Source: Synergistaceae bacterium
GTDB taxonomy: Bacteria > Synergistota > Synergistia > Synergistales > Aminobacteriaceae
Direction: 5' to 3'
Length of the DNA stretch: 37,770 nt
NCBI GenBank assembly: GCA_018436595.1
Contig: JAHDLC010000017.1
Location: 1 to 37,770 of the forward strand
The translations under genes and the position numbers were made by a program. Of the stretch, positions 2,176 through 5,545 are shown in pieces (position 1 is the first letter of the stretch; every line of letters starts with the position of its first letter). The notes under the pieces are model-generated. The model saw only the letters and a program-made list of their open reading frames with translations, was not told the DNA's origin and did no database searches.

Positions 2176-3369
2176 TTAAGGGTTTTCAATCGCTTTCCCG
2201 GCCATCTTTTCGAGAAGAATCAGGATATGGAGCAGGTAGAGGAGAACCCCGCCGTTGGCCGCAAGGATCAGCCCGGTCAAGAGGGCGGGAAGCAGTCCGG
2301 GGAAAAGCATGGAGGTTCCGAACATGATGGAGAGCAGATTCAGGACGACCTGGGAGATGTTCAGACGTACCAGGACAGGCAAAACTGGATTTCTTCCCTG
2401 TTTCCGGAGCCCCGAAAGGGTTCCCCGGAGTCCGATGATCCCGCCGAATATGTTCAGCAGACCGATGAGAAGAGTCAGAAGGGAAACGAGAATTCCGGGC
2501 ACTATGCAGGAAACGATGCCCAGGCCAGCGAAAAGGACTCCGCATATGACCACCAGCCGGGTGCGGCGGAAGGCACCTATGGGGGTGTTGCCCGTTGATA
2601 TCATTTTAAGGGCCATTATCACCATGAGGAGGCCGAGCTGGGCACTCCCGGCGAAAGGAAGCATGCCGAGGCTTACGGGAACGAGAAAGAAGCCGAGAAG
2701 GATCATGAAGATGCCCGTAAGGAGAATGACGGAATGCTCGGAGGATAAGATTTCACTCTCGCTCTCTTTTCCTTCGGGGGCGGGATATTTCCTGTAAATC
2801 TTTGACATTGCCGCCGCCAGAAAAAGGATGGCCGCACCGAAAACAAGAACGGTGACGGCAGTTTCATCCCCGGAAAACAGTCCCTGATTCAGCACGAGCA
2901 CCCCTATAAGCATGGAAAGAAGATAGACGGCCGCGCACCCCGTCCACAGGAGATGAAACGTTCCTCCCATGCGGGCCCAGGTACGGAATCTGCCGGGGGC
3001 AAGAAAAAGGTGGGCCAAAAGGGCTGCCCCTCCGGGAGTGAAGCAGAGAAAGAGCAATACAGCAGGAAGGCGGCTGAAAATGCCTGGAATGAAACAGGTC
3101 ACTATTCCGGCTGACGCCACCGCGAGACCGGTGCAGAAGAGAGGTTTTGACCGTTTCATCTCCCCGAAGGGCGTTTGCCCCAGGAGAATGATCTGCAGGG
3201 CAAAGAGGAAGAGTACAAGACCGTAGACCCCGTTTTCATAGTATGGAATTGCTCCCCTCGTCACGGGAAAAAGCAGGATGCCGGTCAGGACCATCATCAC
3301 CCCGGCAATGAGAAGAATCACCACGTCCAGCGCAAGGTCCGTCTCTTCAAGGAAAAAGCTCCTGTTCAT
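2176..3369 (-). CDS. Polytopic membrane protein with internal tandem duplication
   Basis: The 397-residue protein is almost entirely hydrophobic, with roughly ten membrane segments and no signal peptide. It is made of two homologous halves. Residues 16-105 and 213-303 line up at a constant offset of 196: QTPFGEMKRS (65-74) matches NTPIGAFRRT (261-270), and GIVTCFIPGI (88-97) matches GIVSCIVPGI (284-293). A charged linker (about 190-212) joins the halves. The repeat, with paired helices, a TP-x-G loop and a C-x-x-PGI turn, loosely recalls small HdeD/DUF308-like membrane proteins, but I cannot name the family. Nothing indicates a catalytic site. AGGAGC lies before the ATG. It is followed by the racemase gene 157 nt downstream and is divergent from the protease operon at 3617. 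Confidence 0.85.
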   Translation of the reverse strand: MNRSFFLEETDLALDVVILLIAGVMMVLTGILLFPVTRGAIPYYENGVYGLVLFLFALQIILLGQTPFGEMKRSKPLFCTGLAVASAGIVTCFIPGIFSRLPAVLLFLCFTPGGAALLAHLFLAPGRFRTWARMGGTFHLLWTGCAAVYLLSMLIGVLVLNQGLFSGDETAVTVLVFGAAILFLAAAMSKIYRKYPAPEGKESESEILSSEHSVILLTGIFMILLGFFLVPVSLGMLPFAGSAQLGLLMVIMALKMISTGNTPIGAFRRTRLVVICGVLFAGLGIVSCIVPGILVSLLTLLIGLLNIFGGIIGLRGTLSGLRKQGRNPVLPVLVRLNISQVVLNLLSIMFGTSMLFPGLLPALLTGLILAANGGVLLYLLHILILLEKMAGKAIENP

Positions 3370-3525: not shown

Positions 3526-3534
3526 TGATACAAT
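3526..3534 (+). promoter_or_regulatory. Extended -10 promoter of the protease operon
   Basis: The plus strand reads TGATACAAT: an extended TG motif and a TACAAT -10 box, 83 nt before the ATG at 3617. No good -35 box is present at 17 nt, which is common for extended -10 promoters. Confidence 0.55.
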
Positions 3535-3616
3535 GGCCGGAAGAAAGCCTGCTGCGGGCGGTCGTTGTCCGTCAATGCCCATCCGGACCCGGTTGCCGAG
3601 ATAAAAGGAGATACTC

Positions 3617-3880
3617 ATGAACCTGGATGCTCTAACCGATTTTTCCTTTCTGCGGCCTCTTGCCCCCTTGCTGTTTCTGCTGTTTTTTCTTGCGGCAGCC
3701 CTTCCTTTTCTGCGCCGCCCCGGAAAGGAACGGCTCTTTTATGCCGCTCTCGGGCTTTTCTTTTTCGGGGCATCGGCTGTTTTTCTTCTGATGGGGCAGC
3801 CCCTTGCCGCTTTTTCCGTGTTTTTTGTTCCGGCCCTTCTCTACAGCGTCTTCAGGAAAGCGGGACGGAAGAACAAATGA
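3617..3880 (+). CDS. Small membrane protein, 87 aa, first gene of protease operon
   Basis: The product has about three hydrophobic segments (residues 12-32, 39-58 and 61-77) and short basic loops (RRPGKER, RKAGRKNK), suggesting an integral membrane protein with a cytosolic C-terminus. AAGGAGAT lies 7 nt before the ATG. Its stop codon overlaps the start of the CPBP protease gene (ATGA), so the two are translationally coupled and probably made in similar amounts. I do not recognise the family. The tight coupling suggests a partner subunit or chaperone of the protease, but this is inference. Phenylalanine content is unusually high even for a membrane protein. Confidence 0.8.
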   Translation: MNLDALTDFSFLRPLAPLLFLLFFLAAALPFLRRPGKERLFYAALGLFFFGASAVFLLMGQPLAAFSVFFVPALLYSVFRKAGRKNK

Positions 3881-4389
3881 AGGAATTGCTGGTCTTCGCT
3901 TTTTTTCTCTATTTCCCTTACGGCTGGTGCGCCCTGTCCGGAAACAGCAGGGAATCCTTCGGGTTGATCTGGAAAGCAGACCGCCATGCCCTTCGGGACG
4001 TTGCAGCAGTTTCTCTTCTGACCCTGCTGCCCCTGACGGCCGTCTCCCTTTTCTTTTTTGGGGACCGTCTTTTCCCCCCTGCCCTGCGGTCGGTTCCGGC
4101 ATCTGTCCTCTCCGGGCTTGCGGCGGCAGTGGCTGAGGAAACATTCTTCAGGGGATGGGTTCAGACCATGCTTGGATACCGTTTTTACCGGGGGTGGAGC
4201 ATTATCCTGGCCTCCGCCCTGTTCGGGATTGCCCACCTGGCCTCACCTCACGCTCCCTTTGCGGTGCTGGCTTTCTTTCCGGGGCTGGCCATGGGATACC
4301 TCCGGGACCGCCACGGGTCGGTGCTGCCGGCAATTCTCTACCACTGGATAGGCAATATCTGGTCTATCTGGCTGTATCCTCGTTTCTGA
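3877..4389 (+). CDS. CPBP family glutamic intramembrane endopeptidase
   Basis: The 170-residue protein carries the three CPBP (Abi/CAAX-like) motifs: EETFFRG (residues 87-93, catalytic Glu pair plus Arg), FGIAH (116-120) and HWIGN (156-160). It is an integral membrane protease with about five helices that would cut substrates in or near the membrane. It is at the short end of the family, which suggests a single-purpose enzyme. In some bacteria, glutamic intramembrane proteases of this family (the Mrt group, including MrtS of Synergistota) process proteins with C-terminal sorting tails. That role is possible here but rests on the inferred taxon and compact size. No candidate tail protein is recognised in this window. 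The ATG overlaps the TGA of the preceding gene, so the longer upstream frame is not used. Confidence 0.9.
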   Translation: MKELLVFAFFLYFPYGWCALSGNSRESFGLIWKADRHALRDVAAVSLLTLLPLTAVSLFFFGDRLFPPALRSVPASVLSGLAAAVAEETFFRGWVQTMLGYRFYRGWSIILASALFGIAHLASPHAPFAVLAFFPGLAMGYLRDRHGSVLPAILYHWIGNIWSIWLYPRF

Positions 4390-4415
4390 GGAATACGAAG
4401 AAAGGAGTTTTTCCC

Positions 4416-5483
4416 ATGAAATCCATTCGTTCCATTATTCTCCCGGCTGTTGTGTCCGTTATCGCGGCCTTTCTCTTCTCTTCTCCCGTGTACGCAGGGC
4501 CCGTCTACAGGATCGTGATGCCCCTCGTCCGGGGAGAGGAGGCGCGGGCGGAACTCCCCGGCGGACGCATTTTTCCCCTGGGGAAAGTGACTGGGCTGCC
4601 TACGGCAACCCGGTGGCCGGGGTATACGGCATCGAAATGGGCCGCACCGGGAACGGTGGCTGCTTCGGCGGTGAATGCCGTTCATCTCACCCTGTCGGTG
4701 GAGAAGGACGCCGGAAGGACCATGAGCATCCTGCCGCTCCACACGGTGGCTCCGGCGGCCGGAGAGAAAGCTTTCATCACCCTCGACGTTCCGGCGGGCA
4801 CCGGTTTCTTCGGAGGCTGGGCTCCTCCCGTGGGGACAAGGGTCCTGGTGCGGAAGGCAGATGGACTGCTGGTTCCCCTGGAGGTCAGCGGTCTTCCCTC
4901 TCCCGGAGACGAACTGATTTTTGACGTGGAGGAAGAAGAACGGCCCTACATCATCGACGTGGAGAACCGCCCCGGAGGGCGGGTTCTGGGATGGTATCCG
5001 GCGGGACCGAAAGTCCTTGCCCGGGTTATCCGCCCGGTGAGGGGCGTCGGGAGGTTCGGGGGGACGGAGTTTCAGGGCAGGGGAAGGATCAGGGCGAATC
5101 ATTCGGGAGTCATCGACGTGAGCACTGCCGGCCGGGGGGTGACCGGAGGATTCCAGATACTTCCCTTCCTCCACTCGAAGTCAAAGGAGATGGGAGGAGC
5201 CTGGCAGTTGACCCAGTGGCTCATCATCGCCTCCGAAACGGAGCGGGCATTGCCCGGAACGGCGCCTCTTTTCCTGGGAAACCTCGTTCCGGGAAGCCAG
5301 ATGTCGGACGTTCTCTGGGACATCTGGTCCACCTACGGAAGAAAGCCCCTGGTGCTCTGCAGGCTTGACGGCGGCCCGTGGGAAAAGCTTCCCGAGGAGG
5401 GCGGGAAGCAGGATTTCGCACTGGAACGGGTAACCCACCTCCGCATCTACAGCCCCTTCACCGGGGAGCCCCAGAAACAGTGA
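4416..5483 (+). CDS. Secreted protein of unknown function, 355 aa
   Basis: The product has a clear Sec signal peptide (basic MKSIR, hydrophobic core to about residue 22, likely cleavage after SSPVYA at 27). The mature part is about 328 residues, rich in Gly, Pro and beta-prone stretches. It has a conserved-looking block around GVIDVSTAGRGVTGGFQI and GAWQLTQWLII, then a C-terminal region with one cysteine (LVLCRLDGG). No membrane anchor, lipobox or C-terminal sorting tail is present, so it should be periplasmic or exported. AAAGGAG precedes the ATG, 26 nt after the protease gene, so the three genes form one operon. The family is not recognised. It could be a substrate or partner of the protease, but nothing in its sequence proves that. 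Confidence 0.82.
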   Translation: MKSIRSIILPAVVSVIAAFLFSSPVYAGPVYRIVMPLVRGEEARAELPGGRIFPLGKVTGLPTATRWPGYTASKWAAPGTVAASAVNAVHLTLSVEKDAGRTMSILPLHTVAPAAGEKAFITLDVPAGTGFFGGWAPPVGTRVLVRKADGLLVPLEVSGLPSPGDELIFDVEEEERPYIIDVENRPGGRVLGWYPAGPKVLARVIRPVRGVGRFGGTEFQGRGRIRANHSGVIDVSTAGRGVTGGFQILPFLHSKSKEMGGAWQLTQWLIIASETERALPGTAPLFLGNLVPGSQMSDVLWDIWSTYGRKPLVLCRLDGGPWEKLPEEGGKQDFALERVTHLRIYSPFTGEPQKQ

Positions 5484-5508: not shown

Positions 5509-5545
5509 AAGGGCGCGGGATTCCTCCCGCGCCCTTAATTTTTAT
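5509..5545 (+). terminator. Rho-independent terminator between convergent genes
   Basis: A 12-bp perfect stem (5509-5520 with 5525-5536, loop TTCC) is followed on the plus strand by AATTTTTATT. It lies 25 nt after the secreted-protein stop and overlaps the end of glmS on the other strand. It may also end the minus-strand glmS transcript, although the T run on that side is poor. Confidence 0.92.

Follow-up and report, generated by a model that had tools for sequence, protein, structure and literature searches.

An MrtS sorting protease locus in a Synergistaceae genome, and the pairing of MrtS with Lgt-like transferases and type II secretion across Synergistota

The window analysed here, a stretch of 37,770 nucleotides from a Synergistaceae bacterium, contains a run of three genes whose middle member, judged by its profile match and catalytic motifs, is MrtS, the sorting protease of Synerg-CTERM tails. 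The distribution and gene order of mrtS across Synergistota suggest that the missing partners of this enzyme are an Lgt-like transferase and a type II secretion system (T2SS), and not the 87-residue membrane protein encoded directly upstream of it. We consider it probable that Lgt lipidates the cysteine of the substrate tail, that MrtS then cuts, and that the T2SS exports the product. The identity of the enzyme is not new, since the MrtS / Synerg-CTERM system has already been described, reportedly by Haft. The features of the locus are the following (window coordinates):

3617-3880, plus strand: 87-aa gene, small three-helix membrane protein (from the sequence)
3877-3880, plus strand: ATGA stop/start overlap of the 87-aa gene and mrtS (from the sequence)
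3877-4389, plus strand: mrtS, 170-aa CPBP glutamic intramembrane protease (NF040589, PF02517)
4135-4152, plus strand: EExxxR catalytic motif, E87, E88 and R92 of MrtS (from the sequence)
4234-4236, plus strand: second catalytic His, H120 of MrtS (from the sequence)
4342-4356, plus strand: HxxxN motif, H156 and N160 of MrtS (from the sequence)
4400-4407, plus strand: Shine-Dalgarno-like GAAAGGAG 5' of the secreted-protein gene (from the sequence)
4416-5483, plus strand: gene for the 355-aa secreted protein, unnamed Synergistota-wide family (from the sequence)
4416-4496, plus strand: predicted signal peptide, residues 1-27 (...SSPVYA|GPVY) of the 355-aa protein (sequence reading)
5509-5536, plus strand: strong intrinsic-terminator-like hairpin of 12 pairs, between the secreted-protein gene and a convergent glmS (glmS read from the sequence)

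The three open reading frames of the original prediction (87, 170 and 355 residues, all on the plus strand) were confirmed, and their spacing fits the translational coupling and cotranscription that had been predicted for them. They are not chance reading frames, because mrtS and the secreted-protein gene have orthologues throughout the phylum and the 87-aa gene recurs in three more genomes of the genus. The order of the wider neighbourhood is glmU, fur, small gene, mrtS, secreted-protein gene, glmS. Elsewhere in the window, six consecutive tRNA genes (Asn, Cys, Gly, Phe, Asp, Val) lie on the minus strand at 521-1058, and a 397-aa multi-helix membrane protein with a weak DUF308 match is encoded at 2176-3369 (minus strand), divergent from the operon; among the loci searched, relatives of the latter were found only in L048 and L050.

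The protease had been guessed from its sequence to be a sorting enzyme of the Mrt type, and this guess was right: against the MrtS model NF040589 it scores 220.6 bits with a cut-off of 130, residues 3-169 aligning with positions 2-169 of the 170-position profile, and it also matches PF02517 (CPBP) with an E value of 2e-19. The pattern of EExxxR, second His and HxxxN was found in all 91 mrtS loci examined. Of 188 Synergistota genomes, 126 encode an MrtS that scores above the cut-off, absence in a given genome meaning that no HMM match was obtained in what are draft assemblies. The deep family f11 has MrtS-like proteins that fall below the cut-off, at 94-100 bits. The predicted substrates lie elsewhere in the genome, as had been proposed, the 355-aa neighbour itself having no Synerg-CTERM tail. 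The Synerg-CTERM model gave 17 matches in the window's own genome at E 10, six of them above the cut-off, and about 15 of the 17 look genuine when read through to the stop codon, most of them with a [GS]GGC[ST]AG-type motif ahead of a helix rich in leucine and a basic terminus. Two matches (L012 and L016) were discounted as they do not contain the GGC motif. Tails of this type were found in 139 of the 188 genomes, and in 87 of the 91 MrtS-positive genomes that are at least 90% complete. MrtS is predicted to cleave these Synerg-CTERM substrates.

The original prediction had proposed the 87-residue protein as a partner of the protease. Its description as a three-helix membrane protein is borne out by three hydrophobic segments and by a low-confidence structural model (pLDDT 71) with helices at residues 9-31, 37-58 and 62-85, and close relatives were found solely in its own genus (L048, L049 and L050). 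By profile comparison it joins a family of three-helix proteins of about 80-120 aa that share the motif W..A.AP..P (82% probability, P 1e-5), a moderate link in which the 87-aa side was a four-sequence profile; the protein is thus probably a divergent member of this small family. Three things would suit a dedicated subunit of MrtS, or a partner presenting substrates to it: the ATGA by which the gene overlaps mrtS in the window, a spacing that is unchanged in L048 and L049, and the presence in many genera of a small hydrophobic gene, from either of two unrelated families, just 5' of mrtS. Such a role is nonetheless very improbable. A profile made without the window's own copy and its group places the three-helix family in 41 genomes, including members of f3, f9, f10, g2 and g29, groups in which no MrtS was detected, and the family is thus not confined to genomes with MrtS. 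In f3 and f9 the three-helix gene is located 3' of fur, and in f10 and g2 it is adjacent to the secreted-protein gene or one gene away from it. None of the loci that we examined from f8 and g8 showed a homologue adjoining mrtS, and in most other genera of f1 the slot before mrtS is occupied by an unrelated 91-aa hydrophobic protein with the motif NT..LGLSIW..GFA.M..GWLV (38 genomes; loci L018-L047, L051, L052, L054, L060-L064, L066 and L107). Homology between the 87-aa family and this 91-aa protein was rejected by profile comparison. The proposal of a partner is therefore not upheld, and most likely the protein is a bystander that belongs to an older neighbourhood at the fur locus. As for the expectation that the three genes would be conserved together, it stands for mrtS and the secreted-protein gene, which are associated across the phylum, but not for the 87-aa gene, whose occurrence is patchy.

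The conserved neighbour of mrtS is the secreted protein. Homologues with 44-97% identity, encoded 3' of mrtS in the same orientation, were found in 65 of 89 mrtS genomes from several families (67 loci, two genomes being counted twice). It had been described as a signal-peptide protein of an unrecognised family, and indeed it has a signal-peptide-like N-terminus and no match in Pfam, NCBIfam or PHROG. The family is present in 159 of the 188 Synergistota genomes with 48 invariant positions, and the best 80 matches in the genome collection are all from Synergistota. A profile search of the PDB gave no match, and a weak phmmer match to the solute-binding protein 4p56 (E 0.038) was not reproduced by it. 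AlphaFold2 gave a confident model (pLDDT 94.6, pTM 0.89), and Foldseek comparison of this model with the PDB and BFVD returned nothing below E 0.001. As a family spread through the phylum, confidently modelled and with no match to a solved structure in the PDB, the protein deserves attention. Its position downstream of mrtS, its 48 invariant residues and its occurrence with lgt in a single gene run in genome G079 would all suit an accessory of sorting, for example a periplasmic carrier passing trimmed proteins to the T2SS. We find such a function decidedly unlikely, as the protein is also encoded by 22 of the 30 MrtS-negative genomes that are at least 90% complete, and is therefore not obligate to sorting, and as its gene lies away from mrtS in f2 and g36. 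The best explanation is an independent envelope protein that shares an operon with mrtS. Four genomes (G123 and G173-G175) have three or four copies of the family each, which suggests paralogues with separate roles.

Support for the proposed partners of MrtS comes from co-occurrence. Among the 188 Synergistota genomes, Lgt-like proteins (PF01790) were found in 142 and LspA in 110, and combinations were counted in the 121 genomes that are at least 90% complete. In this set 91 genomes have both MrtS and Lgt, 7 have Lgt without MrtS, 23 have neither and none has MrtS without Lgt, so that an Lgt-like protein accompanies MrtS in 91/91 positive genomes versus 7/30 negative ones. The GspG pseudopilin of the T2SS follows the same pattern, scoring above the cut-off in 84/91 versus 1/30 genomes; the copy in the window's own genome (G000:C36) reaches 185.9 bits with a cut-off of 88.85. 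LspA was never found without MrtS, while 15 of the 121 genomes have MrtS without detected LspA. MrtS, Lgt, LspA and tails are all present in 73 genomes from 28 genera and all absent in 22 genomes from 12 genera; MrtS, Lgt and tails occur with LspA undetected in 14 genomes from 10 genera, and one genome (G028) has MrtS and Lgt with LspA undetected and no tail above the cut-off. Fisher values for these associations are about 1e-18 to 1e-20, but genomes within one genus are not independent, so we give these values little weight and place it on the recurrence of the pattern across genera.

The window's genome is among the fifteen MrtS-positive genomes that kept Lgt with LspA undetected. No LspA was found in it by PF01252 (E 1e-4) or by a Synergistota LspA profile (E 0.1), and LspA was not detected elsewhere in its genus, absence here being a result of HMM searches of draft genomes. 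The Synergistota LspA profile was tried on 31 genomes, nearly all of them without a PF01252 match, and recovered three positive controls; it gave one clear but partial match (G040, scored as LspA-positive) and, at E 0.055, a borderline match in G116. Since LspA is undetected in the genus, the C-terminal route may be the sole use of Lgt there. Few lipoboxes were counted in 20-kb samples taken from five genomes, even where the genome was LspA-positive.

The Lgt of the window's genome matches PF01790 with 129.3 bits over residues 3-246 (gathering score 24.9). Against TIGR00544, the equivalog model of the canonical prolipoprotein transferase, with a cut-off of 118.9, this copy scores 85.5, that of f2 107.7 and that of g41 46.5, all of them below the cut-off, while the Lgt of the deep family f11 passes with 219.9; most Synergistales Lgt proteins have EGGL or EGGM in place of the canonical HGGL motif of f11. 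The Synergistales proteins are divergent, and their activity as putative transferases is not assured because of the sub-cut-off TIGR00544 scores of the three copies tested and the altered motif. At loci L108-L112, f11 and f12 have a canonical Lgt (HGGL, GNF.N.E) and a higher-scoring LspA, unlike Synergistales.

Gene order points in the same direction as co-occurrence. In the f2 genomes G007 and G010 the lgt and mrtS genes share 4 bases, and they are arranged in the same way in G009, where the reading frame of lgt is interrupted close to the 3' end. In g41 (G143 and G152) the two genes lie next to each other in divergent orientation, gspG adjoins lgt, and gspE and gspF are also close by in G143 (L313). 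Genome G079 (L315) has an apparent run in which mrtS and the secreted-protein gene are followed by a gene for a thiol-redox membrane protein resembling DsbD, then by lgt, and last by a gene that by sequence reading is serine-protease-like; the DsbD-like protein could hold the tail cysteine reduced. In g36, gspG lies directly 3' of mrtS, with gspD, gspE and gspF near. Altogether, lgt is found beside mrtS in three lineages and mrtS within a T2SS cluster in two. By a rough calculation, chance alone would put lgt within 3 kb of mrtS in about 0.12 genera, compared with the three lineages observed (P for three or more about 3e-4).

From these data we infer the following order of events. Sec would move the substrate across the inner membrane, where its C-terminal tail (GGGC[ST]AG, helix, RR) would hold it; the Lgt-like transferase would add a lipid to the tail cysteine; MrtS would cut off the tail, after which the lipid would anchor the protein; and the T2SS would deliver it to the surface. 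A different account of the same distribution is that MrtS cuts without prior lipidation, and that Lgt, LspA, MrtS and the T2SS were lost jointly by lineages that simplified their envelopes. The 22 genomes from 12 genera in which MrtS, Lgt, LspA and tails are jointly missing would agree with this, as would the loss of GspG in the lineages that lost MrtS and Lgt. It also has on its side the near-complete genomes of genus g2 (G029-G031; loci L136-L138, L121 and L122), which kept Lgt and in which MrtS, LspA, tails and GspG were not detected. We regard it as unlikely, as MrtS and Lgt have stayed together in the 15 LspA-negative genomes, lgt adjoins mrtS in three lineages, and cleavage by MrtX in Myxococcus needs the tail cysteine (PMC11980579). 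Carrying the preferred pathway of lipidation by Lgt, cleavage by MrtS and export further, it is quite possible, and we put it forward tentatively, that in the window's genus and several other lineages, which have Lgt-like proteins, MrtS and the T2SS without LspA, Lgt acts on C-terminal cysteines only, and that the missing acyltransferase of myxosortase pathways is a divergent Lgt.

Synergistota may be seen as a natural experiment, with lineages that have kept the pair of Lgt and MrtS although no LspA was detected in them and with clusters of lgt, mrtS and T2SS genes, and in which the open question of the enzyme that lipidates the tail is reduced to a two-gene test. The protease shows no differences from the known MrtS system (NF040589 / TIGR04564), having a score far above the cut-off of its model, the same catalytic motifs and matching tails; new relative to that system are the co-occurrence and clustering with Lgt-like proteins and the T2SS, and the MrtS lineages without detectable LspA. 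Like Rce1-like CAAX proteases (PF02517), MrtS has EExxxR and HxxxN, but in the proposed pathway, unlike in theirs, the substrate would be exported and the lipid would come from an Lgt-like enzyme and not from a prenyltransferase. The logic would be that of the Lgt-LspA pathway in mirror image, a cysteine being lipidated before the chain is cut next to it within the membrane. Unlike in N-terminal lipoproteins, the cysteine is here near the C-terminus, and, unlike in the Lgt-LspA pathway, LspA was not detected in the window's genus and the Lgt of Synergistales is divergent (EGGL, GCFLNGCC). The closest parallel is MrtX / MYXO-CTERM of Myxococcus xanthus, which likewise combines a glutamic intramembrane protease with a cysteine-containing tripartite tail (PMC11980579). 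The order proposed there is lipidation, cleavage and T2SS, and the lipidating acyltransferase was reported as unidentified, with Lgt as the leading, unproven candidate (PMC11980579). MrtS differs from MrtX in being short (170 aa), and, unlike the MrtX system, some Synergistota have an lgt-mrtS overlap or a common cluster with the T2SS. The MYXO-CTERM scheme suits Synergistota well, and these genomes provide natural support for the parts assigned in it to Lgt and the T2SS.
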